From: Cherax quadricarinatus | Lineage: Eukaryota; Arthropoda; Malacostraca; Decapoda; Parastacidae | Direction: 5' to 3' | Assembly: GCF_038502225.1 (NCBI RefSeq) | Contig: NC_091323.1 | Span: 23,952,845 to 24,016,844, forward strand | Length of the DNA: 64,000 nucleotides | Part shown: in pieces, positions 1,106 to 50,912 of the stretch | Numbering within the stretch: position 1 is the first letter of the stretch | Layout: every line of letters begins with the position of its first letter | Notes under the pieces: model-generated | Seen by the model: only the letters and a program-made list of their open reading frames with translations | Told to the model about the DNA's origin: nothing | Database searches by the model: none | Made by a program: the position numbers and the translations under genes

Positions 1106-1134
1106 CACTGATCGCTACTAGGTAGCGATCAGTG
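1106..1134. repeat. Perfect short hairpin, 13-bp arms, 3-nt loop
   Basis: CACTGATCGCTAC and its exact reverse complement are separated by TAG. The left arm is LINE-A sequence; the right arm is a snap-back copy that leads directly into a second (TG)n tract (to about 1155). Confidence 0.9.
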
Positions 1135-1155
1135 TGTGTGTGTGTGTGTGTGTGC

Positions 1156-1950
1156 AAGCAATGCAATCGCAGACATGTGATCTTAACAATGCAGGACAAA
1201 GCAACTCCCGTGATTTGTCTTGCTTGTCTGTGTCCTAGCGCTATGATGTCTGTGTCCTGGCAGCCATGTCTGTTTCTTGGCAGCCATGATGTCTGTGTTC
1301 TGGCAGCCATAATGTCTGTGTTTTGGCAGCCATGAATATACTGGTTACCTATCTACTGTCCACTGCCCTTGCAATGTTAATCCAGAGCTGTATCGACTCA
1401 ACCTATGAGTGAATACACGAATTGTGTGGATAGCCCCGACTGCTGCTCAACCAGCTTAAACTTACGCAAACTTCGAATTTCACGCAAGGAATGATGGCAA
1501 AATTGCTTCTCCCTGTTAAATCTTGAAATTATATTACATTACATATCCACTTTAATTACTTCCTTCGGTTGTGTATATGGTTTTAACATTCATATTATCT
1601 TATGTTTTTAGGACATTGGCTTTTTTCTACATTTCGTAGTTGAATTATCTTTTTATCTTTAAAGTGTCTCGTAGAAGTGACAACTGCAATATTGCAATTT
1701 TTTATGCTATAAATGTATACCGGAACAATCTTGACACTGACGAATGGCAGCTGCCGAATTGGATCGTCTTGATGACAATGCAGAAGTAGATCTGTGTGTC
1801 GATATGATGCTGTGAGCATGGACGACCAAGATGATTATGTGCATTCTTCACAAACCTGTTCTTCGTTGTAAACTTTCAAAGATAAGGTTATTGCCCTTAA
1901 TTTCTTTTGGCGTATTTTCTCAACTCAAGTAGAGTTCAGGGTAACATTAA
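1156..1950. other. No gene seen; short imperfect repeats
   Basis: Between about 1220 and 1335 a 'TGTCTGTGT..TGGCAGCCAT' phrase of about 30 bp recurs four times imperfectly. The rest is AT-rich with no convincing coding signal. Confidence 0.5.
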
Positions 1951-1982
1951 TTCATATGCCCTTCACGGCTGTGAAGGGCATA

Positions 1983-1986
<4 letters not shown>
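1951..1986. repeat. Perfect hairpin, 16-bp arms, 4-nt loop
   Basis: TTCATATGCCCTTCAC, loop GGCT, then the exact reverse complement. It abuts the following (TA)n tract. Confidence 0.93.

Positions 1987-2074
<88 letters not shown>
1987..2074. repeat. (TA)n microsatellite
   Basis: About 44 uninterrupted TA units. Confidence 0.97.
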
Positions 2075-2077
<3 letters not shown>

Positions 2078-2103
2078 ATAACCACAAAACAAGTGGTTTT
2101 GAA

Positions 2104-2305
2104 TCATTTACCAAACTGCGGCAGGCCGGGATTCGACCTCACGCATGAAGAGGCCAAAAATTGTACATGTCACCCTACCATCACAGCCATTGACCCTAGG
2201 ATCCTTGATCGGGCAACCTAGGATAGATGGCTCAGATAGTAGGGTGACAAGTACAATGTTTGGCCTCTTGAGGCGGGACAATGTGTCATGGGGTCGAATT
2301 ATATT
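2104..2305. mobile_element. Inverted pair of tRNA-derived SINE heads
   Basis: Positions 2149-2177 and 2239-2267 are imperfect inverted repeats. Read on the minus strand, the left copy has an A-box-like TGGCTGTGATGG and a B-box-like GGTCGAATCCC. The right copy, on the plus strand, has TGGCTCAGATAGTAGGG and GGGGTCGAATT. This promoter layout is that of a pol III tRNA-related SINE; the parent tRNA is not identified. The two copies face each other with about 60 bp between the arms. Confidence 0.5.
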
Positions 2306-2309
2306 CATT

Positions 2310-4400
2310 TATAATAATTAAAAGTTAGGAAGAATTTAAGCTATGTGTGACAGATCCTTGACACTCCCTCCCCCCCACTTCATGCTGGGACAGGTGTAAT
2401 GTCATGTGACATCTCAGCCTTATAATCCTTCTACTTCATCAACGCTGATTCAGCAAAAAAATAATCGGTTGGTTTGGCTTCCACCTTCAGTTATAACGAG
2501 TTTTATTACAGGAAGAAAATTTAGTTTATTATTTTATTAAACCCCACTCATTTGAAAATAATGTAAGAGTTGATCCCTGCCCAGCCCAGGCTCCTCCTGG
2601 CTCATATCCTCCCGTCAATAACGTGAAACCATTAAAAATTCTGACTTTTTTTGAAATACATATCGAAGTATCACATAATGAAAAATATTTTATTATCTTA
2701 AAAAGTGATGAATTCACATTATTTGTTTTTATTTTGATAGCTGATGTGTAGTGTAAAACTATCAAAAATTCTCATCACCAGGCCCAGTATGCCGTTAATG
2801 ATAAAATATATGTATAGTTGACAAGATGTAAATAGAGGCAGAAGATGACTAGGTCATTACCTCTCCTACATATGTACCTTATAACCTCAGTCTCCATTTC
2901 TGCTAGAATCCTTATTTTTTTTTTTTTTGGCGGGGGGAAAAACATACTGTGATATACTGAAGGTGGAGGTGCGTGAGGAGTTGGGTGTGGAGGTAGGCAT
3001 GAAGGCGGGTGTTGAGGTGGAGATTGGTGTTGTGGTAGAGGAGGTGCGTGAAGGTGGAAGTGGATGTGGAGGCGGATGCACTGCGGAGTAGCGGCAGCTG
3101 CGTTTAATCCCCGTTAATATTTTTTTGTTTTACAAAAGAATAACCTGCCTAAGCTACACTATGTTTACATAGCTGCTAAGTATTTACATCCAACGGTAAT
3201 GAACCAGGAATTACAAATTTCAATCATTTTCTTTTATCATCTTTATACATGATACAAAAAACATCGCATCTTAATGAAAGATGCTTCAAACATCACATTT
3301 TAACACACGTTACTAGAAACATCTCATCATAATACATGATACTTCAAACATTACGTCTTAATGTATAAATCAAGAACATCCGAATATTAACAAAAACTTA
3401 TATGTACACTTGGTGGTAAAGACAACAACGACACTTTCAATGATGAAATTAAATACTATGGATAAAATACTAAAGGATTATTTTTATTAGTGAATCAACT
3501 TAATTGCTTGACTGTGTAATTATCAACAAAATGTTAATCAACCAAAGGTCAATATTCTAAAATCTATATCAAAAGCAATTATTTTAAGTCTGGTAAAGAA
3601 ATATCAAGCTCCTCACACACTTCCAGGATAACCAATTAAATAGTTATGTCAAGTGTTTGGCAACATTTCCTAACTTGACAAAAGTTCACGTAAAATATTC
3701 TCGCTTAATTTGCCTACTCTCTTCAAGAATTTAAATTTTAATACTTAACTGGTTCTCTTAAGGAGATGTGAATCTTAAGATAAACTGAAACAATTCTACA
3801 AACCTGACATTATAATGTTCACTAATGAAAGAGAAAAATTAATTTCTTTGAGAATTCGTAAGCTATTTAAATTCAATGAGTAATTAGTGTACGTTTTATT
3901 ATACTTGTACGTAGATGCCTTTGTTTCTGCATCCATTTGCGTATCTAGTAAATAAATAGTAAAAATTACGCTGTTTATATGTGCCCAAGAGACCATCGCT
4001 TCCGTGTGCATTAAACTATTTAAAATTTCTACGGTTGTGTTTATTTTGAATATATTTAATATTTATCTCAGCAACCACCTGTCTAGGTTTTGACGTGTCT
4101 ATGCTCCTGTTTGCTGAAAACAAACTCAATTCAGGATTGCGTGTATTTACATGCCACGCTATTCAGGACTGCATTTATATTATATCTAATTAAGAAATAA
4201 TTTTCTGGGAATCCTTCAGATAAAAATGATACTCATCCTGAGTCTGTTATCTTATCTCATCTTGACTGTATTAACCTCTAACTAACCATATTTTAATTGT
4301 TTACATAAAATAGTTGTAATGTTAAGATTACAAGTACACACTGTCTCCCAAATCTATACAATATTCCGTATGACTGGCATTTCCCCTAGAAGGGTGAATG
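2310..4400. other. AT-rich non-coding stretch
   Basis: No open frame with coding character and no element ends. Around 2950-3080 there is a GT/GA-rich patch of imperfect GGAGGTG-type repeats. Frames in it (proline/threonine-rich on the minus strand) follow from composition. Confidence 0.5.
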
Positions 4401-5600
4401 CTAGTAGGTATGCAGCAATGCTAGTAGGTATGCAACAGTGCTAGTAGGTATGCAACAATGCTAGTAGGTATGCAACAATGCTAGTAGGTATGCAACAATG
4501 CTAGTAGGTATGCAACAATGCTAGTAGGTATGCAACAATGCTAGTAGGTATGCAACAATGCTAGTAGGTGTGCAACAATGCTAGTAGGTATGCAACAATG
4601 CTAGTAGGTATGCAACAATGCTAGTAGGTATGCAACAATGCTAGTAGGTATGCAACAATGCTAGTAGGTATGCAACAATGCTAGTAAGTATGCAACAATG
4701 CTAGTAGGTATGCAACAATCCTAGTAGGTATGCAACAATGCTAGTAGGTATGCAACAATGCTAGTAGGTATGCAACAATGCTAGTAGGTATGCAACAATG
4801 CTAGTAGGTATGTAACAGTGCTAGTAGGTATGCATCAATGCTAGTAGGTATGCAACAGTGCTAGTAGGTATGCAACAATGCTAGTAGGTATGCAACAATG
4901 CTAGTAGGTATGCAACAATGCTAGTAGGTATGCAACAATGCTAGTAGGTATGCAACAGTGCTAGTAGGTATGCAACAATGCTAGTAGGTATGCAATAATG
5001 CTAGTAGGTATGCAACAATGCTAGTAGGTATGCAACAATGCTAGTAGGTATGCAACAATGCTAGTAGGTATGCAACAATGCTAGTAGGTATGCAACAGTG
5101 CTAGTAGGTATGCAACAATGCTAGTAGGTATGCAACAATGCTAGTAGGTATGCAACAATTCTAGTAGGTATGCAACAATGCTAGTAGGTATGCAACAATG
5201 CTAGTAGGTATGCAACAATGCTAGTAGGTATGCAACAATTCTAGTAGGTATGCAACAATGCTAGTAGGTATGCAACAGTGCTAGTAGGTATGCAACAATG
5301 CTAGTAGGTATGCAACAGTGCTAGTAGGTATGCAACAATGCTAGTAGGTATGCAACAATGCTAATAGGTATGCAACAATGCTAGTAGGTATGCAACAGTG
5401 CTAGTAGGTATGCAACAATGCTAGTAGGTATGCAACAATGCTAGTAGGTATGCAACAATTCTAGTAGGTATGCAACAATTCTAGTAGGTATGCAACAATG
5501 CTAGTAGGTATGCAACAATGCTAGTAGGTATGCAACAATGCTAGTAGGTATGCAACAATGCTAGTAGGTATGCAACAATGCTAGTAGGTATGCAACAATG
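4401..5600. repeat. 60-copy, 20-bp minisatellite
   Basis: The unit CTAGTAGGTATGCAACAATG repeats exactly 60 times in 1,200 bp. Units differ only by scattered substitutions (for example ACAGTG, ACAATT, AAGTATG, CTAATAGG). No unit gains or loses a base, so the 20-bp register holds from end to end. Edges are sharp: AGGGTGAATG before, CATACTTG after. Confidence 0.99.
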
Positions 5601-5774
5601 CATACTTGTTATCTCCTCGTCCGTGTCTTGATGCCTCTCGTCCGTGTCTTGATGCCCTTCGTCCCTGTCATGGTCATAGTCACCGGGAGCAAAGGAAGCA
5701 TACTGGACGACGAATGTTCAAACATGGTCATGACTGGACACCGTACCGTTACTTGTGTGTCTCCCATGCACACT

Positions 5775-36074: not shown

Positions 36075-36166
36075 AGTTCGTGTTGGTATATCTTTAGATT
36101 ATAGTATGTGTTGGTAAATCTATTGGTTAAAGCTTGTGTTGGCTTATAGGTCATGTTGGTTAATCT
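36075..36166. repeat. LINE-C target-site duplication, left copy
   Basis: 92 bp beginning AGTTCGTGTTGGTATATC and ending CATGTTGGTTAATCT. It is identical base for base to 41947-42038. Confidence 0.97.
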
Positions 36167-36190
36167 ATTGATTTTTTTTTTTTTTTTTTT

Positions 36191-37361
36191 ATATTTTATT
36201 GAAAAGACATACATAGTACATAAAAATAAACGACAAATTACATAGTGAAAACAGTGATGAAAAATTCTGCATAGTACATGTACTTTCCAATTAACATATT
36301 ACATCTGAAAGACAAATCTGTACAGTAAACAATGACCATTCCAATCCTTGAAGTAATGACATTATGTCTGGAACACTAAATCTAACCTAAAGACTCCTTG
36401 GCAAGTACATCTAATTCCTGATTGTACATTCTGCCACGGAATGTACACCTTACATTCTAAAAACACTACCCCCCCCCCCTTCTTGCGTGTCAAGCCGCCT
36501 GACACGTAACAATCTTTATATGTAACTGTATATTGTATGAAATACTTTCATTATTCCATATTGAACAACATGATACGTTCAGTATCACTCAATGTATTGA
36601 GATAATATAAAATTCAATTCTACATGATTCATGTACAACGTATATCTACTAAACACCCAAACATATCACCTTCTCGAGGAAGGTATAAATATATACATAT
36701 GTTACATACACTTTACAACACAACCAGTGAAAACACAAATACCTAATCCTATGTCATCCATCAATTACCCTATAATATATATCAATTCAATGGTAACCTA
36801 AACCTACGGGCTCTATTGAGCTCCCATGAAAAAACAATATGTATTAAGAAAACAGGATAAGTCAAGCTTTCTAAAAATATTTCACCCATATCATTAAAAC
36901 CACTACTAAGATGTAAGTCTGTTATCACAAAACATAACAGTGCATCACCTTCACACGTCGATAAATACTGAAGCTTCCTACCACACGCAATACTTCATGT
37001 GTATATATATATTTCGCATTCACACAGTGCCCCCATTTTGTCATTTCATTACACACATACCAATAATTTCGTTGCAGATATATAATATTCCATCACATTA
37101 CGACGTCTGTCGTCCTTTGTCATTAGCATAATTAATAATTAAATTGTAGAACGTGTATCGTTCACAACACACAACCCGCTCATCATACAGTCAAAGGCAC
37201 TTATGTCTCAGTACTATATTCATTCTCTTCCGCACTAAACCCTTTCACACTGTCCTCATCGGGAAGCCAGCCCGCCGCGACCCCTTACATTGCACTTAAA
37301 TCCCATAAATCCCTCAACCTAAAACTCCGATAGCCCTCAGTAAACGCATTCTCCCAATTCC
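36191..37361 (-). other. LINE-C 3' UTR
   Basis: About 1.17 kb between the ORF2 stop and the poly(A) tail, AT-rich, with no long frame. It contains a C10-type run (36470-36479) and a 7-bp stem (CGTGTCA / TGACACG, 36486-36506). AATAAA lies at about 36194-36199 on the minus strand. 3' UTR hairpins can serve RT recognition in LINEs; that role is inferred here. Confidence 0.8.
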
Positions 37362-40300
37362 CTACATAAATTCCCTATTACGACACTTAGTTCTGTAAAA
37401 TGTCGCAGCTAACACCTTTATCCTCTCATCCACGCCCACCTCCCTCATGGCCCATGACGTATATATAAAATCCGTGACCAAATACGCCACTGCATTCTCC
37501 ACCATCTTACTCACCCCTCCTATATCCAAACTTAAAGCCCGCAACACCTGCAATCCTCCCCCACCCACTAACCTGAACACCTTTCCTAACCAGACCCGCA
37601 CCACTTCTATACAGTCACAAAAATATACCGCATGCAAAATTGTCTCCATGCTTCCACACGCTCTACATTCCCCTCCCTCCCTTATCCTCCTATTGAATAG
37701 GACAACCCCAGACGGCAAAATCCCATGTAAAAATCTAAACATTACCTCCCGAACACCCGGTTTTACACGTAATTGTTTTAGACGCGTCCATATTTCGTTC
37801 CACGCATACATAGGGTATGCCCCTTCAACAGCAGCCACCACTGACCTACCTTCCACTCCTTCGAGGACCCGCAATTTAACACACGACGGATCCCTCACTG
37901 TCATTAATAACCTCAACATGGCCTCACCAACTATTAAATCCCTACCCCCCCACCACCGTTGCATATCCTTACGTACTCGCACAAGTCCACCTCCCCTCCC
38001 GCACCCCTCCCTTATATAACTTCGTTTTAGGTACACGCTCATCATCCTTTTTTCCAGAGGTAAAAGTCCCAGCCCTCCTCGACTGACCGGAAGTGTTAAC
38101 ACCGCTCTACTTAACCATTCGCAGCCCGATCCCCATATAAACCTAAAAACCCCATGTTGTAAACGCTTCACCTCACGTCTCATCAGCGGGTACATGACAA
38201 CGACATGCCATATCTTGCTGTACAATAGCACGTTCGTCACTATTACTCTTTGATGCAGCGTTAGTTGCGCCGCCCTCAAACCACCAAGTCTTTTCAATAC
38301 TCCATTCACTATTCTCACCGAATTCACCTCTTGAGCCACCCGTGTATTTCTCACATAAATTATCCCACATATCATTAGTTGATCCACCACCTTCCACCCA
38401 CCCCCTACCACCTCATCCCCATTTGTACTATCCCTTAAGTCTAGAAACTTAGTCTTCCCAACATTAATTTTCATACCTGAAGCCTCCCCAAACACATCCA
38501 CCACCTTACCCACCCTAAGCAAATCCCCATTACCTCTCACCAAAACAGTCGTGTCATCCACATAACCTACGATACCAGCCCCCCCCTCCCCCCGGTCAGT
38601 ACCCTCCCCACCTCCCGCAACACACCTCCGAATGGCCCTATAAAATGGATCCTGTATACACGCAAACAATATTTGTGATAGTGGGCAGCCTTGGCGCAGT
38701 CCCCGTCGCATCTGTATTTTAACTCCCAGCCTCCCATTAACCTGCACCCTCATCGATGCCCCCTGATACAATAATTTTGCCCAAGATATTATTTCTTCCC
38801 CAAAACCTTGCCAACGCATAAACCTCCATAACGCTTCCCTTTCTACACTATCATAAGCAGCCTTCCAATCTAACGCCAATACACCTCCATCACCCAACTC
38901 CCCCTGTTTCTCTATAAATTCTCGAATCATGCCATGCCCTTCATACATCGACCTTCCTGGCACCCCATATTGCCCCTTATCAATTACCTTGCCTATTACC
39001 CTCTTGATTCTGTTCCCTAATATTCTCGCAAACAACTTATAATCTCCACACATAAGCGAAAGTGCCCGATAATCCATTACCGTTGACTGCTCCCCTTTCG
39101 GCACCAACACCACAACGGCCGTCCGTTGCTGCTCTCCCATTACCTCAGCCGCCTTAAGTATGTTAAACAGCCTTACTAAAAAAAACCTCAGAACCCCCCA
39201 ATTCTTTACGTAGAAATCATTTGGCAGTCCGTCTATACCCGGCGCTTTTCCCAAACTTACTCCTGACAACGCCTGCCAAATCTCACACTCCGTAATCGGC
39301 CCACCTAATGTCACCCGATCTTGACCATCAAGCTCACACTGCACATACTCTCCCATTTCCCTCAATGCCACCTCACGGAAGCCCACACTTTGCGTATATG
39401 ACTTAAACCAAGCGTCTACATATCCACTCATACCCTCTGTCGTTACCAATGCTTGACCCGCTCTATACCCTTCCATCCCTACATGTACGTTTAACCCCAT
39501 CATCTCCATCGTCACTCTCCTCTTTCTCTGGCCTCTTAACACGCAAGCCGACGGCCGGTCACCCCATAGCACTTCTTCCAATCCTCCCATAATTCGCACA
39601 CCATCAAAACGCTCGTTTTGCAATACCCTAATACTCTCCTTTAAACCCTCAATGTCCTGCACTGGATAGCTTGCTCCTCCTCTTGCATAACAGTCCCGCA
39701 GCTGCCCTTCAAGATATCTTTGAAACCCATACTTTAACCGATTATCTTCCCTCCCACGACAAATATAATATTCTCTGATACGATTTTTAGCCACCGAATC
39801 CCACCAATTTACCAGTTCATCATCCCCCGGCGCCTCATCCACCAACCGTTCCCACAATTGCGCAAAAGACTGACAACATTCCTCACCCTGCAAAAGCCTC
39901 ACATTTAACTTCCAATAACCTTGACCCCTTCTAGGCAATCCCTCCCATTCTAGGTCCACCATTACTCCTCTGTGATCCGAAAAAACCGCGTCCACCACAC
40001 GCACTCTGCTCACTATTACTGTTCGGGGCACATACAATCGATCCAGTCTTGCCGCATATCCACGTCTAACAAAAGTATGTTCTACAACCCCACCCCGTCC
40101 AACGTCCATTAACCCCACTCCATTTAATAATTCCCCCAAAATCCCCAAACAATACCCTGCCCCTCTAGGTTCCACATCCTTACGCCTTATCACACAATTC
40201 CAATCACCACCAATTACAGCTACACCCGGCAAAGCACGCAAATAATATACTAAGACATCCTTCACAAATTTATTCTTAATACGCACATCTCCCTCTGCTG

Positions 40301-40608
40301 GACCATACACACACACCAAACTCATCTGTACCCTACCCCACCACCCATCTACACGAATCACCCTCCCCTCCCCCCCCCTCACAATGCCTCACTACGAACG
40401 GGCTAGTTTCCCTTACCAGGATGGCAACTCCTCCTTTCAACCTTATCGCATGCTCCACATACACATTATACCCATTTACCTTCAACTCATAACCTGGTCT
40501 GTAGTTGTGTTCCTGCACGAACACCACGTCAACACTATTACGCACCAAATATTCACTAAACCATACACACTTTCTCTCTGATCTCAATCCATTAATGTTC
40601 AATGTCAT
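37362..40608 (-). pseudogene. LINE-C ORF2 (endonuclease-RT), one frameshift
   Basis: Starts at 40608 (MTLNINGLRSERKC; APE Asn motif, then VFVQEHN with the catalytic Glu). Within 40333-40382 the frame changes by one base, at a run of nine C (40370-40378 on the plus strand). The remaining 1,006 codons have the rest of the endonuclease (GGDWNCV at residues 58-64, RLDRLYV 112-118, FSDHRGV 134-140). The RT follows (GKAPGIDGLPNDF 378-390, LDWKAAYDSV 504-513, GLRQGCPLS 561-569, GYVDD 606-610). A C-terminal CCHC motif reads CRACG...H...C. Motif C is YVDD rather than the usual F/YADD; Val is tolerated in some RTs. Total length would be about 1,080 residues. The lesion could be a real mutation, a polymorphism or a consensus error in the homopolymer. 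Confidence 0.95.
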
Positions 40609-40619
40609 GCACTTGAAGC

Positions 40620-41858
40620 TTACAGAGTGGTTTTCCTTCTTGACCCTGGTACTGTCTTGCCACCAGATCGTTTCGTGACACCTCGGTCCCTCTCCCCCCC
40701 TTTAGAAACGCTCTTAACCAACTCCTGCCCCGTAGGGCCGCTGTTTCCTCTCTGCGTAACATCCGCCCAGGACTTTTTGCCAGTGCGCTGAGCAGGCGTG
40801 ATCACGTCCTCGGAGTCAGATAGTGCAGCAGCGCGCTTCCGTGATGCTCCCTCTGCTTCCATCATGTCGTCTGATACATTGTCCCGGTGGACCTCCACCT
40901 CCACAGCTTGCATCAAAAGATTCTTATCACACTGCGCAGACCTCAGATCCTGTTCCACGCCCGGATCCACAACAGACCCAAGAACTAGATCTGGACTCCC
41001 AACCTTCCCAAGACTCTTGTCAGCCAATAACACATTTAAAGCCATGGCTAATGAGTCTTCCACATCGCTAGCACTCGCAGTCGGGGTGTCCTCTTCCAAC
41101 ACCTGAGCTGCGTTCAATGAAGGGGTGTCCCCCCCCCTCGTCACACCTGCTGACTCCATCTCCTCCGCTCTCTCGACCTCCTCACTCCAGGACCCACCTT
41201 GTGTAGGCAGAGTCACATAAGGCAAATCCTCACTCTTCTCTATTGCTGTATGTCGTTGCCTGTGTTCCATGTTGCCACGCCTCCTTTCACACAGAGCCGC
41301 TAGGTGATCATATGACCCACATAACCGACAGGTCCGGCGTTGCCCAGCGTATGTCACAAACACCTGGGTACGAAATTCTGGCAGCACTACGTACGACGGA
41401 ATAGGGTAACGTAACGTCATCTTCACAGAATACGTTCCTTCGAGTTTCCCTGCGTATGGCCCAGTGGCCCACTTCCCAACAGTGGCCATATGTACTGTAC
41501 CATATTTGCCCATCGCAAGACGGATGTCAGAATCATCCGCCTCGAATGGCACATTTCTAATCTTAACCCATGTGTAATGGCGAGAAACGTCGTGAAGTCG
41601 CACGGTCACAGCGGAGTTAACTGTCAAAGTAACCTCCTGGTACTTGTCGACTACCGCCTCATACACACTTGCCAAATTAAACTTGACAAAGATCCTCGTC
41701 GTGCCATTCAGCGCTACTCCATATATCTCCTCGTCAGCAATACCATATGTATCTCGTATGATTGCAGGTAGTATCAGGTCCATAGAAGTTCCTGTCACAG
41801 CCCCACGGATAAGCTCAACACAGACTGTGTTTATGCGTCTCCGGCTTGCCTGCGCCAT
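40620..41858 (-). CDS. LINE-C ORF1 nucleic-acid-binding protein
   Basis: An intact 412-codon frame. Residues about 94-170 look like an RRM-type fold (YTWVKIRNVPFEADDSDIR, then GKYGTV and GTYSVKMTL). A CCHC zinc knuckle follows at 177-190 (C-x2-C-x4-H-x4-C). The C-terminal 220 residues are acidic, then basic and low in complexity, ending with KTVPGSRRKTTL. RRM plus CCHC is the layout of ORF1 proteins that coat LINE RNA. It starts 88 bp from the element's 5' end, and its stop lies 11 bp before the ORF2 start, so ORF2 is probably reached by reinitiation. Confidence 0.93.
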   Translation of the reverse strand: MAQASRRRINTVCVELIRGAVTGTSMDLILPAIIRDTYGIADEEIYGVALNGTTRIFVKFNLASVYEAVVDKYQEVTLTVNSAVTVRLHDVSRHYTWVKIRNVPFEADDSDIRLAMGKYGTVHMATVGKWATGPYAGKLEGTYSVKMTLRYPIPSYVVLPEFRTQVFVTYAGQRRTCRLCGSYDHLAALCERRRGNMEHRQRHTAIEKSEDLPYVTLPTQGGSWSEEVERAEEMESAGVTRGGDTPSLNAAQVLEEDTPTASASDVEDSLAMALNVLLADKSLGKVGSPDLVLGSVVDPGVEQDLRSAQCDKNLLMQAVEVEVHRDNVSDDMMEAEGASRKRAAALSDSEDVITPAQRTGKKSWADVTQRGNSGPTGQELVKSVSKGGERDRGVTKRSGGKTVPGSRRKTTL

Positions 41859-41946
41859 GCTGTGAAAATATAACTGCCACTAATCAACACCAGGGGGTAG
41901 CAGCAGCGCACGTCCTCTCTACTCAAGGGCTGAGAGACGAATGACG
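41859..41946 (-). promoter_or_regulatory. LINE-C 5' leader
   Basis: 88 bp between the duplication and the ORF1 ATG. Full-length L1/Tx1 elements carry an internal promoter in or near this region. It is short here, so some promoter elements may lie inside ORF1 (inference). Confidence 0.5.
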
Positions 41947-42038
41947 AGTTCGTGTTGGTATATCTTTAGATTATAGTATGTGTTGGTAAATCTATTGGTT
42001 AAAGCTTGTGTTGGCTTATAGGTCATGTTGGTTAATCT
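41947..42038. repeat. LINE-C target-site duplication, right copy
   Basis: Exact copy of 36075-36166. It ends two bases before the first 400-bp unit of the following array. Confidence 0.97.
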
Positions 42039-42040
42039 TG

Positions 42041-44214
42041 AACATTAAAATGGTATGAAATACCGACAGATTGTTAGGTAAGACACATATGCAACAGTTA
42101 GGTATCTTTATTTCGAAACGTTTCGCCTACACAGTAGGCTTCTTCAGTCGAGTACAGAAAGGTTGATAGAAGCAGAAGATACTTGAAGACGATGTAATCA
42201 GTCCATCACCCTTAAAGTTTTGAGGTGGTCAGTCCCTCAGTCTGGAGAAGAGCATTGTTCCGTTGTCTGAAACAATATGAAGTTGAAGTGACAGAATGGG
42301 GCCTTTATATAGTGCCAGGAGGTGAGACGTAGGTTGCTTTGGGAGGGCAGGTCCTTCTCAAACCCAGCCGTTCTCACTAGTAGAGGTTGTCGAAGTGGTC
42401 TGTACCAAGATACCCTTGTGTTGCAGTGTCTGACAGAATGAACATTAAAATGGTATGAAATACCGACAGATTGTTAGGTAAGACACATATGCAACAGTTA
42501 GGTATCTTTATTTCGAAACGTTTCGCCTACACAGTAGGCTTCTTCAGTCGAGTACAGAAAGGTTGATAGAAGCAGAAGATACTTGAAGACGATGTAATCA
42601 GTCCATCACCCTTAAAGTTTTGAGGTGGTCAGTCCCTCAGTCTGGAGAAGAGCATTGTTCCGTTGTCTGAAACAATATGAAGTTGAAGTGACAGAATGGG
42701 GCCTTTATATAGTGCCAGGAGGTGAGACGTAGGTTGCTTTGGGAGGGCAGGTCCTTCTCAAACCCAGCCGTTCTCACTAGTAGAGGTTGTCGAAGTGGTC
42801 TGTACCAAGATACCCTTGTGTTGCAGTGTCTGACAGAATGAACATTAAAATGGTATGAAATACCGACAGATTGTTAGGTAAGACACATATGCAACAGTTA
42901 GGTATCTTTATTTCGAAACGTTTCGCCTACACAGTAGGCTTCTTCAGTCGAGTACAGAAAGGTTGATAGAAGCAGAAGATACTTGAAGACGATGTAATCA
43001 GTCCATCACCCTTAAAGTTTTGAGGTGGTCAGTCCCTCAGTCTGGAGAAGAGCATTGTTCCGTTGTCTGAAACAATATGAAGTTGAAGTGACAGAATGGG
43101 GCCTTTATATAGTGCCAGGAGGTGAGACGTAGGTTGCTTTGGGAGGGCAGGTCCTTCTCAAACCCAGCCGTTCTCACTAGTAGAGGTTGTCGAAGTGGTC
43201 TGTACCAAGATACCCTTGTGTTGCAGTGTCTGACAGAATGAACATTAAAATGGTATGAAATACCGACAGATTGTTAGGTAAGACACATATGCAACAGTTA
43301 GGTATCTTTATTTCGAAACGTTTCGCCTACACAGTAGGCTTCTTCAGTCGAGTACAGAAAGGTTGATAGAAGCAGAAGATACTTGAAGACGATGTAATCA
43401 GTCCATCACCCTTAAAGTTTTGAGGTGGTCAGTCCCTCAGTCTGGAGAAGAGCATTGTTCCGTTGTCTGAAACAATATGAAGTTGAAGTGACAGAATGGG
43501 GCCTTTATATAGTGCCAGGAGGTGAGACGTAGGTTGCTTTGGGAGGGCAGGTCCTTCTCAAACCCAGCCGTTCTCACTAGTAGAGGTTGTCGAAGTGGTC
43601 TGTACCAAGATACCCTTGTGTTGCAGTGTCTGACAGAATGAACATTAAAATGGTATGAAATACCGACAGATTGTTAGGTAAGACACATATGCAACAGTTA
43701 GGTATCTTTATTTCGAAACGTTTCGCCTACACAGTAGGCTTCTTCAGTCGAGTACAGAAAGGTTGATAGAAGCAGAAGATACTTGAAGACGATGTAATCA
43801 GTCCATCACCCTTAAAGTTTTGAGGTGGTCAGTCCCTCAGTCTGGAGAAGAGCATTGTTCCGTTGTCTGAAACAATATGAAGTTGAAGTGACAGAATGGG
43901 GCCTTTATATAGTGCCAGGAGGTGAGACGTAGGTTGCTTTGGGAGGGCAGGTCCTTCTCAAACCCAGCCGTTCTCACTAGTAGAGGTTGTCGAAGTGGTC
44001 TGTACCAAGATACCCTTGTGTTGCAGTGTCTGACAGAATGAACATTAAAATGGTATGAAATACCGACAGATTGTTAGGTAAGACACATATGCAACAGTTA
44101 GGTATCTTTATTTCGAAACGTTTCGCCTACACAGTAGGCTTCTTCAGTCGAGTACAGAAAGGTTGATAGAAGCAGAAGATACTTGAAGACGATGTAATCA
44201 GTCCATCACCCTTA
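42041..44214 (-). repeat. 400-bp tandem array, left arm (5.4 units)
   Basis: Unit boundaries (AACATTAAAATGG) fall exactly every 400 bp at 42041, 42441, 42841, 43241, 43641 and 44041. The sixth unit stops at unit position 174. I saw no differences between full units by eye. Strand is given as minus because the TATA box, hairpin and AATAAA read in that direction. No open frame of note. Confidence 0.98.
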
Positions 44215-44376
44215 TATAAAGGCCCCATTCTGTCACTTCAACTTCATATTGTTTCAGACAACGGAACAATGCTCTTCTCCAGACTGAGGGACTGACCACC
44301 TCAAAACTTTAAGGGTGATGGACTGATTACATCGTCTTCAAGTATCTTCTGCTTCTATCAACCTTTCTGTACTCGA

Positions 44377-44417
44377 CTGAAGAAGCCTACTGTGTAGGCG
44401 AAACGTTTCGAAATAAA
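44377..44417 (+). other. Hammerhead-like core plus AATAAA in each 400-bp unit
   Basis: CTGAAGA (44377-44383; fits CUGANGA), then a 6-bp stem GCCTAC/GTAGGC with a TGT loop (44385-44399), then GAAA (44400-44403) and CGTTTCG. AATAAA follows at 44412-44417. The order matches the two conserved boxes and stem II of a hammerhead ribozyme. I find no UH cleavage dinucleotide after stem III, so self-cleavage is doubtful. CGAAACGTTTCG is also a perfect 12-bp palindrome. Confidence 0.35.
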
Positions 44418-44612
44418 GATACCTAACTGTTGCATATGTGTCTTACCTAACAATCTGTCGGTATTTCATACCATTTTAATGTTCATTCTGTCAGACACTG
44501 CAACACAAGGGTATCTTGGTACAGACCACTTCGACAACCTCTACTAGTGAGAACGGCTGGGTTTGAGAAGGACCTGCCCTCCCAAAGCAACCTACGTCTC
44601 ACCTCCTGGCAC

Positions 44613-44646
44613 TATATAAAGGCCCCATTCTGTCACTTCAACTTCA
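44613..44646 (+). promoter_or_regulatory. TATA box and initiator-like site in each 400-bp unit
   Basis: TATATAAA (44613-44620) is followed at about 33 bp by TTCATATT, which fits YYANWYY with its A at 44646. The arrangement recurs every 400 bp on the plus strand in the right arm and on the minus strand in the left arm. It is a plausible pol II start; activity is untested. Confidence 0.4.
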
Positions 44647-46049
44647 TATTGTTTCAGACAACGGAACAATGCTCTTCTCCAGACTGAGGGACTGACCACC
44701 TCAAAACTTTAAGGGTGATGGACTGATTACATCGTCTTCAAGTATCTTCTGCTTCTATCAACCTTTCTGTACTCGACTGAAGAAGCCTACTGTGTAGGCG
44801 AAACGTTTCGAAATAAAGATACCTAACTGTTGCATATGTGTCTTACCTAACAATCTGTCGGTATTTCATACCATTTTAATGTTCATTCTGTCAGACACTG
44901 CAACACAAGGGTATCTTGGTACAGACCACTTCGACAACCTCTACTAGTGAGAACGGCTGGGTTTGAGAAGGACCTGCCCTCCCAAAGCAACCTACGTCTC
45001 ACCTCCTGGCACTATATAAAGGCCCCATTCTGTCACTTCAACTTCATATTGTTTCAGACAACGGAACAATGCTCTTCTCCAGACTGAGGGACTGACCACC
45101 TCAAAACTTTAAGGGTGATGGACTGATTACATCGTCTTCAAGTATCTTCTGCTTCTATCAACCTTTCTGTACTCGACTGAAGAAGCCTACTGTGTAGGCG
45201 AAACGTTTCGAAATAAAGATACCTAACTGTTGCATATGTGTCTTACCTAACAATCTGTCGGTATTTCATACCATTTTAATGTTCATTCTGTCAGACACTG
45301 CAACACAAGGGTATCTTGGTACAGACCACTTCGACAACCTCTACTAGTGAGAACGGCTGGGTTTGAGAAGGACCTGCCCTCCCAAAGCAACCTACGTCTC
45401 ACCTCCTGGCACTATATAAAGGCCCCATTCTGTCACTTCAACTTCATATTGTTTCAGACAACGGAACAATGCTCTTCTCCAGACTGAGGGACTGACCACC
45501 TCAAAACTTTAAGGGTGATGGACTGATTACATCGTCTTCAAGTATCTTCTGCTTCTATCAACCTTTCTGTACTCGACTGAAGAAGCCTACTGTGTAGGCG
45601 AAACGTTTCGAAATAAAGATACCTAACTGTTGCATATGTGTCTTACCTAACAATCTGTCGGTATTTCATACCATTTTAATGTTCATTCTGTCAGACACTG
45701 CAACACAAGGGTATCTTGGTACAGACCACTTCGACAACCTCTACTAGTGAGAACGGCTGGGTTTGAGAAGGACCTGCCCTCCCAAAGCAACCTACGTCTC
45801 ACCTCCTGGCACTATATAAAGGCCCCATTCTGTCACTTCAACTTCATATTGTTTCAGACAACGGAACAATGCTCTTCTCCAGACTGAGGGACTGACCACC
45901 TCAAAACTTTAAGGGTGATGGACTGATTACATCGTCTTCAAGTATCTTCTGCTTCTATCAACCTTTCTGTACTCGACTGAAGAAGCCTACTGTGTAGGCG
46001 AAACGTTTCGAAATAAAGATACCTAACTGTTGCATATGTGTCTTACCTA

Positions 46050-46580
46050 TGAGGCCTCATCAACGACACAGACCGTTGTATAAGCTGGGAAGTTTATTAA
46101 TTATAATTTCTGATATGAGGCCAGGAAGTCTTTCGTTTTACTAACATTTGTGCATATTTCTGTTTACAAGAACTGCTAAGTCTTTCTCGCCTTCGATTTG
46201 ACTAAGCTTTATAATGTGCCGAAAACTAGCAATGAACTAGCGTAACCATTCAGTGGAGTGCCACTTACGAGTTCGAGGCCTGATAGTCAACTGAAAACGT
46301 TCTATAATATTTATTGTATAAACGCCACCGTGTTACTTTTTTCGAAGATAAAATCGTACATCTGGTCACACTGTACTTCATCTGCCACATTTCTAACCAT
46401 AACAGTAATCTACTGTATCGAAAACATCCTAAAGCTCCCCGAGATCCCCCCAGATATTTAATTCTCTTATTTTTGTAGCCGGCCATCTTACTTGTCGCTT
46501 TTTATTCCCTCATTCATGTTGTTTGTAACTTGTTAAGAATGGCCTCTGTGGAAAACTACTTGTGACTGGTCCCCAGTCTG
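46050..46580. other. No recognised gene
   Basis: Begins beside the 12-bp palindrome ATGAGGCCTCAT (46049-46060). The rest is AT-rich. Confidence 0.5.
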
Positions 46581-46760: not shown

Positions 46761-46966
46761 TAAATACCAAACTGCATTCGTAATTAGTGGTTCCACTAAT
46801 CTTTTCACAGTTAACGTGAGAAAAAATTGTCAATACATAATTAGAAGCTAATGCCGTATCTCCCGTTTTGTAAATAAGTTTCACATTGTCTATCTTACAC
46901 ATCTCTAGCACGATACCAGATTGTAGTAATTTATTATAGACCAGCTAGTGATTTACTAAGTTCCTC

Positions 46967-47002
46967 GGCACCTTAGTCTTGATTCATCAAGACTAAGGTG
47001 CC
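46967..47002. repeat. Perfect hairpin, 17-bp arms, 2-nt loop
   Basis: GGCACCTTAGTCTTGAT, loop TC, then its exact complement. It lies directly upstream of a diverged relative of the 400-bp unit. Confidence 0.93.
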
Positions 47003-47190
47003 GAACACCGGTTTCCAGGCTGAAGGCCTGATTACTTCATCCTACACTGTCTTCTGTGTATAGTTATACAAGGTTAAGGGACTGGTTTCCTCATCTTCTG
47101 TCTCCACAGAGCCTCTATAATGAATTGATAAAACCAGCCATTGGCGAAACGTCTTCAAATAATGATTTCCAGGTGCTGCAAATGTTTCTG
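47003..47190 (+). repeat. Diverged relative of the 400-bp unit
   Basis: Shares the order GACTGATTAC-like, CTTCTG, then a hairpin followed by GGCGAAACGTCTTCAAATAA (47142-47161). In the 400-bp unit the matching phrases are GGACTGATTACATCG and GGCGAAACGTTTCGAAATAA. Similarity is clear only at these anchors. Confidence 0.6.
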
Positions 47191-48082: not shown

Positions 48083-49978
48083 GCCAAGTACAGTGTTTCA
48101 AATAACACTGAGAGCTTCCCTCTTTATCTATTACCAGTGTTACAACACTAAGAGCTTCCATTTTTATCTATCACAGTGTTACAACACTAAGATATTTCCT
48201 CTTTATCTATCACCAGTGTTACAACTAACACTCAGAGCTTCCCTCATTATCTATCACCAGTGTTACAAATAACACTGGGAGCTTCCCTCATTATCTATCA
48301 CCAGTTTTACAAATAACATTGAGAGCTTCCCTAATTATCTATGATCAGTGTTACAAATAACACTGAGAGCTTCCCTCTTTATCTATCACCAGTGTTACAA
48401 ATAACACTGAGAGCTTCCCTCATTATCTATCACTAGTGTTACAAATAACACTGAGAGCTTCCCTCATTATCTATCACCAGTGTTACAAATAACATTGAGA
48501 GCTTCCCTCATTATCTATCACCAGTGTTACAAATAACACTGAGAGCTTCCCTAATTATCTATCACCAGTGTTACAAATAACACTCAGAGCTTCCCTCATT
48601 ATCTATCACCAGTGTTACAAATAACACTGAGAGCTTCCCTCATTATCCATCACCAGCGTTACAAATAATACTGACAGCTTCCCTCATTATCTATCACCAG
48701 TGTTGCAAATAACACTGAGAGCTTCCCTCATTATCTATCACCAGTGTTACAAATAACACTGAGAGCTTCCCTCATTATTTATCACCAGTGTTACAAATAA
48801 CACTGAGAGCTTCCCTCATTATCTATCACCAGTGTTACAAATAACACTGAGAGCTTCCCTCATTATTTATCACCAGTGTTACAAATAACACTGAGAGCTT
48901 CCCTCATTATCTATCCCCAGTGTTACAAATAACACTGAGAGCTTCCCTCATTATCTATCACTAGTGTTACAAATAACACTGAGAGCTTCCCTCATTATCT
49001 AACACAAGTGTTACAAATAACACTGAGAGCTTCCCTCATTATCTAACACCAGTGTTACAAATAACACTGAGAGCTTCCCTCTTTATCTATCACCAGTGTT
49101 ACAAATAACACTGAGAGCTTCCCTCATTATCTACCACCAGTGTTACAAATAACACTGAGAGCTTCCCTCATTATCTATCACCAGTTTTACAAATAACATT
49201 GAGAGCTTCCCTCATTATCTATCACCAGTGTTACAAATAACACTGAGAGCTTCCCTAATTATCTATCACCAGTGTTACAAATAACACTCAGAGCTTCCCT
49301 CATTATCTATCACCGGTGTTATAAATAACATTGAAAGCTTCCCTCATTATCTACCACCAGTGTTACAAATAACACTGAGAGCTTCCCTCATTATCTATCA
49401 CCAGTTTTACAAATAACATTGAGAGCTTCCCTCATTATCTATCACCAGTGTTACAAATAACACTGAGAGCTTCTCTAATTATCCATCACCAGTGTTACAA
49501 ATAACACTGAGAGCTTCCCTCATTATCTATAACCAGTGTTACAAATAACACTGAGAGCTTCCCTCATTATCTATCACCAGCGTTACAAATAATACCGACA
49601 GCTTCCCTCATTATCTATCACCAGTGTTACAAATAACACTGAGAGCTTCCCTCATTATCTAACACCAGTGTTACAAATAACACTGAGAGCTTCCCTCATT
49701 ATCTAACACCAGTGTTACAAATAACACTGAGAGCTTCCCTCATTATCTAACACCAGTGTTACAAATAACACTGAGAGCTTCCCTCATTATCTATCACCAG
49801 TGTTACAAATAACACTGAGAGCTTTCCTCATTATCTAACACCAGTGTTACAAATAACACTGAGAGCTTCCCTCATTATCTAACACCAGTGTTACAAATAA
49901 CACTGAGAGCTTCCCTCATTATCTATCACCAGTGTTACAAATAACACTGAGAGCTTCCCTCATTATTTATCACCAGCT
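48083..49978. repeat. 44-bp minisatellite, about 43 copies
   Basis: Consensus unit ACAAATAACACTGAGAGCTT, CCCTCATTATCTATCACCAG, TGTT. The first four copies are shorter or diverged; the rest differ by substitutions. Variant units (for example AATACTGACAGC, CCAGTTTTAC) recur at spaced positions, so multi-unit blocks have been duplicated. Each unit can form a 7-bp hairpin CAGTGTT-ACAAAT-AACACTG. Confidence 0.98.
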
Positions 49979-50284: not shown

Positions 50285-50912
50285 TAAGTGTTTACTACAG
50301 TCTACATAACGGTACTGTTGAGATTCATGCATGTGTAAACAGTTTACTATAATCTACATCACGGTACTGTTGAGATTCATGCATGTGTAAACAGTTTACT
50401 ATAATCTACATAACGGTACTGTTGAGATTCATGCATGTGTAAACAGTTTACTATAATCTACATCACGGTACTGTTGAGATTCATGCATGTGTAAACAGTT
50501 TACTATAATCTACATCACGGTACTGTTGAGATCCATGCATGTGTAAACAGTTTACTATAATCTACATCACGGTACTGTTGAGATCCATGCATGTGTAAAC
50601 AGTTTACTATAATCTACATCACGGTACTGTTGAGATTCATGCATGTGTAAACAGTTTACTATAATCTACATCACGGTACTGTTGAGATTCATGCATGTGT
50701 AAACAGTTTACTATAATCTACATCACGGTACTGTTGAGATTCATGCATGTGTAAACAGTTTACTATAATCTACATCACGGTACTGTTGAGATTCATGCAT
50801 GTGTAAACAGTTTACTATAATCTACATCACGGTACTGTTGAGATTCATGCATGTGTAAACAGTTTACTATAATCTACATCACGGTACTGTTGAGATCCAT
50901 GCATGTGTAAAG
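50285..50912. repeat. 52-bp minisatellite, about 12 copies
   Basis: Unit: CTACATCACGGTACTGTTGA, GATTCATGCATGTGTAAACA, GTTTACTATAAT. Copies differ at only two or three positions (CATAACGG/CATCACGG, GATTC/GATCC). Each unit carries TGTAAACA, the forkhead-type consensus, followed by its inverted half GTTTAC. Confidence 0.98.

Follow-up and report, generated by a model that had tools for sequence, protein, structure and literature searches.

Head-to-head arrays of a 400-bp unit in Cherax quadricarinatus as probable insertions of a non-autonomous Penelope-like element

Penelope-like elements (PLEs) that contain an endonuclease, as described for PAc of Anolis (PMC11167929) and Pen of rotifers (PMC3846280), have pseudo-long-terminal-repeat (pLTR) copies lying both in tandem and head to head, short target-site duplications (TSDs), two reverse-transcription (RT) starts bounding a tail, and a minimal hammerhead motif that lacks helix III (PMC7761336). 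Their tail is a 31-bp sequence on one of the inverted pLTRs, in rotifers optionally present, and the pLTR carries a TATA box and an initiator (Inr), TCACT in rotifers (PMC11167929, PMC3846280). Metazoan non-LTR retrozymes are short (150-450 bp), non-coding tandem repeats with a GC content below 50% and a type I hammerhead; they are non-autonomous and coexist with PLEs, which have been proposed to mobilise them (PMC7229834, PMC7761336). Here we describe a mirror-image array of a 400-bp unit at 42039-46049 of a 64,000-nucleotide stretch of the Cherax quadricarinatus genome (assembly GCF_038502225.1, contig NC_091323.1, positions 23,952,845 to 24,016,844, forward strand), hereafter the window, together with the family to which the array belongs. 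The family resembles the PLEs in the features listed for them, and the retrozymes in its short, non-coding, AT-rich tandem unit, its type I hammerhead-like motif, its lack of autonomy and its coexistence with PLEs.

The resemblance is incomplete on both sides. Unlike those PLEs, the unit has no open reading frame (ORF), its arms reach up to 15.9 short units, and every scorable locus has one edge of each of two types, called A and B below; unlike the metazoan retrozymes, it carries a hammerhead of the minimal PLE form, with no looped helix III, and lies in mirror arms with PLE edges. LINE-1 twin priming (5' inversion) also uses two primers at one target and gives a head-to-head inversion with microhomology, but there the outcome is an occasional by-product, whereas here it is the rule and involves two fixed internal start sites. 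As a class, head-to-head PLEs with a tail at one end are already known. Neither PLE-edged mirror arrays of a retrozyme-like unit nor a strict rule of one A and one B edge was found in the open-licence papers searched.

Mirror arrays and their edge rule

The window array consists of a left arm of 5.44 tandem units in minus sense (42039-44214) and a right arm of 4.59 units in plus sense (44213-46049), which meet head to head at unit positions 227 and 130 and share two bases, TA (44213-44214). Tandem Repeats Finder returned a period of 400 at 100% identity for both arms (5.4 copies at 42039-44214 and 4.6 at 44213-46049), and direct comparison gave no mismatch, either within the left arm or when the right arm was set against its unit, with differences at a lag of 400 confined to the ends of the compared stretches, beyond the arms. 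The longest inverted pairs without a mismatch measure 1837 nt (spacer 301 nt) and 1740 nt (spacer 95 nt). Apart from the start coordinate and the nature of the left flank, these data bear out an initial annotation made from the letters of the sequence, which had described direct copies flipping into inverted ones, an exact 400-bp period on both sides, essentially identical units, a join sharing only TA, inverted arms of about 1.7 kb around a spacer of about 100 bp, and arms that stop at different unit positions; we place these stops at 2 for the left arm and 366 for the right. Its end coordinate, 46049, was exact, while the start it gave, 42041, lies two bases inside the true edge at 42039; its interpretation overall is partly supported. 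The differing arm ends turn out to be the diagnostic sign of the insertion mechanism.

The unit itself is 400 bp long with a GC fraction of 0.4375 and a longest stop-free stretch of 78 aa, a short, low-GC tandem repeat without an ORF in the manner of metazoan retrozymes. RT and GIY-YIG coding sequence is absent from it and present in its presumed partner PLE, and we therefore file the unit only as a PLE derivative. Its features, given here for one plus-strand copy each, are a minimal hammerhead-like motif of type I that lacks a looped helix III (unit 290-328; 44373-44411), a poly(A)-signal-like AATAAAG (unit 329-335; 44412-44418), a Penelope-type tail that recurs every 400 bp (unit 371-402; 44454-44485), and a putative promoter formed by a TATA box, TATATAAAGG (unit 130-139; 44613-44622), beside an Inr-like TCACTTC (unit 150-156).

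All our evidence comes from the assembly of one genome (3.95 Gb in 7334 contigs), which contains 16,657 occurrences of a 30-bp core of the unit (8230 + 8427). A 501-bp piece of the array has at least 180 matches, and the matches listed fall at about 40 loci; recurrence of the same unit at so many places puts the mirror array beyond chance. We assembled a sample of 49 loci, comprising the window locus, 39 from the best matches of the 501-bp query and nine multi-hit loci on one contig (C1). Of these, 43 could be scored, the exclusions being L013, L021, L040 and L058 (second arm absent from the map), L037 (runs into N) and L020 (rearranged); the A/B count also omits two further arrays, the second one within L059 and the inner one of L028. 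Joint statistics refer to 30 loci of the 400-bp family with a single clean joint each. One of the excluded loci contains a 438-bp direct array (L021:682-2952), a diverged relative of the unit in six copies that each have the same four changes, adjoining a 653-bp piece of the 400-bp unit.

In all 43 scored loci the outer left arm is in minus and the outer right arm in plus sense, so that the 3' ends of the units face outward. The same orientation prevails among the first 100 core hits on C1, where opposite-strand neighbours less than 1 kb apart are (-,+) in 25 cases and (+,-) in three, one of the three sitting between two adjacent arrays of L059. Outer edges cluster at unit positions of about 2 (A) and about 370 (B), and each of the 43 loci has one of each (25 in the order AB, 18 in the order BA; P = 1.1e-13 under equal odds of A and B at each edge); in all 43, one inverted end carries the tail, whose length falls within the 30-40 bp of PLEs. 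At the window locus, which follows this rule, the A edge is on the left at 42039 (unit position 2) and the B edge on the right at 46049 (unit position 366), the putative RT starts on the far and the near side of the tail, respectively.

Of the 43 loci, 39 are flanked by perfect direct repeats of 8 bp or more, as against 6 of 300 shuffled flank pairs; these repeats correspond to short TSDs. They measure 11-17 bp, apart from one insecure case of 40 bp, and 7-14 bp (mean 10.4, 30 loci) once ambiguous bases are subtracted. Microhomology at the joints averages 2.27 bp against 0.67 bp by chance, with none of 20,000 draws as high; two joints bearing extra bases (11 and 1) were scored as zero. The joints occupy scattered unit positions. 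At L014 the arms are separated at the mirror joint by 11 untemplated-looking bases (3610-3620). Copies of a single dispersed repeat hold three separate arrays (L034 240-1050, L047 270-1390 and L057 185-1160), all no more than a few bases from the same site, CAGCAGTAACAGCCT, possibly a target preference.

PLEs sampled from the same genome show the same architecture. GIY-YIG PLEs abound there: a first look gave 14,992 candidates, each of the 150 that were scored matches, and every one of the 27 pairs less than 6 kb apart in that listed set of 150 is (-,+). Five mirror PLEs (L067-L071), chosen for two close GIY-YIG hits, are all head to head, with one edge before and one after a tail of about 30 nt (the edges of L069 were read by eye from an alignment), and four of them have direct repeats of 13-15 bp; that of L069 is 20 bp and lies in repetitive flank. 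L070 has an open 793-aa frame (1110-3488, minus strand) with RVT_1 (E 2.3e-10) and GIY-YIG (E 6.2e-8) domains, and the named relatives of its protein among the matches listed include those of Cherax quadricarinatus, Penaeus vannamei, Oratosquilla oratoria and Portunus trituberculatus. Unit positions 295-393 match the PLE ends at 75%, and GTCGGTATTT.ATACCATTT is common to the unit tail (unit 371-402) and the autonomous PLE tail, so the unit shares sequence with an autonomous PLE of its own genome, as a derivative does.

The array would thus be, with high probability, the insertion of a non-autonomous PLE whose sole content is the 400-bp pLTR-like unit, produced by dual-primed RT. A protein with RT and GIY-YIG endonuclease domains, encoded by a PLE elsewhere in the genome, would cut both target strands about 10 bp apart, and both 3' ends would prime RT on the element RNA, one from A and the second from B; these starts flank the tail of about 32 nt, and neither would be used twice. 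Each cDNA would extend through up to many units, and microhomology would join the two cDNA ends into a head-to-head mirror with its 3' ends outward. Mobilisation in trans by the PLE protein, priming by both strands and the shape of the RNA are the parts of this scheme that we infer. The genomic pattern is the expectation from work on the Anolis PLE, the first active full-length PLE protein to be purified, which cuts the two target strands, extends each of them and initiates RT at a pair of adjacent sites bounding the tail (PMC11167929); the addition here is that each start is used once per insertion. A leader/trailer model, in which the B arm would be longer, starting further along one RNA, was also considered. 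The A arm is the longer in 16 of 30 loci and the median lengths are 732 (A) and 771.5 (B; Wilcoxon p = 0.45, n = 30), so the simple leader/trailer picture on one RNA is unsupported.

Several points weigh against this reading. No TSD was found at 4 of the 43 loci (L011, L017, L019 and the window locus itself), and the 40-bp repeat of L059 is insecure, since it lies in repetitive flank. In vitro, no difference between the strands was seen in the start of RT (PMC11167929), and A/B exclusivity goes unmentioned in the portions of that report consulted. The two arms of L034 (288-993) come from different subfamilies of the unit. The sample was non-random, being drawn from best matches and from nine multi-hit loci chosen on C1, and outer edges were placed by hand on segment maps, with classification by script afterwards. 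Finally, L016, L023 and L028 combine older with younger copies, and their scores come from the outermost edges; two of them, L016 and L028, contain internal (+,-) junctions.

The hammerhead-like motif and the template

The hammerhead-like motif was recognised by folding and by comparison of families. It is ordered as stem I (UCGA/UCGA), CUGAAGA, stem II, GAAA and a CGU that replaces the looped helix III, with predicted cleavage after unit position 324; the stable helix III of the canonical type I hammerhead in retrozymes is missing, with no more than ACGU where it would stand. Of 32 located motifs, 31 entered an alignment of 26 distinct motifs, identical trimmed forms having been merged, and the one excluded has a 23-nt spacer and a U3-G8 core. 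In this alignment 90.7% of cells are paired against 75.7 in shuffles, and the covariation score is 0.427 against 0.165 shuffled and 0.04-0.14 slid. Covariation is seen in stem I, in stem II and in the C3-G8 core pair, which is CG in 17 motifs, UA in 9 and anything else in none, under a search pattern that permitted mixed forms. Two of the five measures, double-change pairs and further pair types, were no better than shuffles (88 and 135 of 500). By sequence comparison the motif has the conserved core and the covarying stems I and II of the minimal PLE hammerhead. All 26 motifs have an extra A between core and stem II, so that activity is not assured.

Rfam gave no hammerhead at E up to 1 in the window at 44001-46100 or in L070, L054, L057, L055 and L016. 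Its matches on these sequences were all below gathering scores and mostly of microRNA type, several being fold-backs of inverted joints; the only one at 44001-46100, MIR447 (48.5 bits against a gathering score of 200), spans the inverted joint and is taken here for a fold-back artefact. No stable fold was predicted for the unit tail alone (z 0.26). In the right flank, 47121-47160 is a decayed copy of a different PLE hammerhead-like motif, of UUGAUAA type with a stem I of UGAA/UUCA, and a near-perfect 40-nt palindrome (46965-47004) lies upstream of it.

Multi-unit arms suggest a template made of hammerhead-cut monomers, either circular or copied end to end. Linear copying would be expected to shorten arrays at each round, so that a lengthening step is needed, which rolling around a circle or end-to-end copying of cut monomers would provide. 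Alternatively, still within the PLE reading, read-through of a source array would supply the template as one long linear RNA, with no hammerhead-cut circle. An arm copied in this way cannot exceed its source, yet L017 has an unbroken arm of 6371 bp (15.9 units). Furthermore, the 30 young loci contain 33 mismatches in 61,672 unit bases (0.05%), each of them in a single unit; the proposal that the array is very young holds for the family in this sense, and upkeep by gene conversion, proposed alongside it, is unnecessary for young loci. The two arms of L054 agree in a core spacing of 402, and those of L056 in one of 401. When eight loci were aligned unit by unit, L052 and L056 each showed no difference between units and the changes in L053 and L054 were private to one unit, while L055 and L057 differ between their arms. 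L053 and L060 were considered as evidence against a monomeric template and neither counts, the changes in L053 being private and L060 not being splittable into units.

A linear template nevertheless keeps a substantial share of the probability, somewhat under half. The PLE hammerhead is dispensable for insertion in vitro (PMC11167929), one change in L028 is common to two neighbouring units (two of the four plus-arm unit pieces that cover it), and a circular RNA like that of retrozymes is putative for the 400-bp unit. On balance we lean towards the monomer. L034 slightly lowers the odds that a single monomer is copied, since its minus arm is of the young type while its plus arm (76 bp) has four older-subfamily changes, and a 13-bp repeat flanks both; such a mirror could stem from two RNAs or from an exchange that took place later at a used site. 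A broader proposal, which we advance tentatively as falling just short of an even chance, is that PLE insertion is obligately paired, each cut strand being primed once and on its own side of the tail, as if two protomers of a single complex each owned one start, and that the 400-bp element is a PLE-driven retrozyme, with both RTs reading hammerhead-cut monomers that are either circular or copied end to end.

Other routes to a mirror

Self-priming fold-back, in which a single cDNA folds and copies its own strand to give a mirror, has been put forward for rotifer PLEs on the basis of their palindromic head-to-head junctions (PMC3846280), and short microhomology at the joint is compatible with it as well. 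A second arm made by fold-back should end at the same start or in copied flank, but it ends at the other start in all 43 loci, and A/B exclusivity accordingly counts against self-priming. Copying of its own strand also cannot yield the arms of different subfamilies in L034. We consider fold-back improbable as the source of these arrays, and dual-primed RT the preferred reading.

Perfect inverted repeats are a known form of artefact, and the window array is known here from assembled sequence alone, so the mirror might have been built by fold-back chimeric reads in the library or assembly, the "assembly product" that the initial annotation had raised. We judge this very improbable: the same layout occurs at tens of loci on different contigs, with differing joints and flanks, two fixed edge positions and outer arms in (-) then (+) sense throughout, and fold-back reads would not create the perfect direct repeats that flank 39 of 43 loci, though the window locus is among the four that lack them. 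An ordinary satellite array with a later chromosomal inversion, homogenised by gene conversion or unequal crossing over, would account for the near-perfect identity of the tandem units, and exchange of units is conceivable in composites such as L023 and L028, but the small, dispersed loci with flanking repeats, the edge rule, the constant (-) then (+) order of the outer arms and the locus-specific core spacing in both arms of L054 and L056 leave it hardly credible.

The flanking LINE and implications for PLEs

To the left of the array, and separate from it, lies a long interspersed nuclear element (LINE) of 5780 bp (36167-41946, minus strand) with an RT ORF (RVT_1 E 1.6e-23) and an ORF1 of 412 aa. 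It is bracketed by a perfect direct repeat of 92 bp (36075-36166 and 41947-42038), long for a TSD; a LINE duplication previously noted in the left flank is thus present, but in nature it is this repeat around a separate LINE. The right TSD copy abuts the array, whose left edge coincides to the base with its end. Two independent events at one base are unlikely, hence the idea of a coupled integration, for instance one in which a nick at the boundary between TSD and target, left during insertion of the LINE, served to prime the array. For an empty site of the window locus, a joined-flank query of the assembly turned up, besides pieces of the window itself, just one weak match at 72%. The window holds other tandem arrays at 48091-49976 (44 bp x 43), 50290-50911 (52 bp x 12) and 4397-5601 (20 bp x 60).

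PLE transposition is poorly understood, and a large, young, natural set of mirror insertions records both RT starts, the stagger and the joint of each event. It offers testable rules, namely one A and one B start per event, a stagger near 10 bp and joining by microhomology, and such a collection separates dual priming from self-priming. The arrays also carry a caution that exact mirror arrays in assemblies can be real insertions. Furthermore, they bear on the open proposal that PLEs mobilise the hammerhead-bearing tandem repeats of animals (PMC7229834). If the obligately paired, retrozyme-like reading is true, most insertions would be fresh clones of one monomer in mirror form; it would account for the puzzling head-to-head insertions of Penelope and would connect PLEs with animal retrozymes by a link so far missing.

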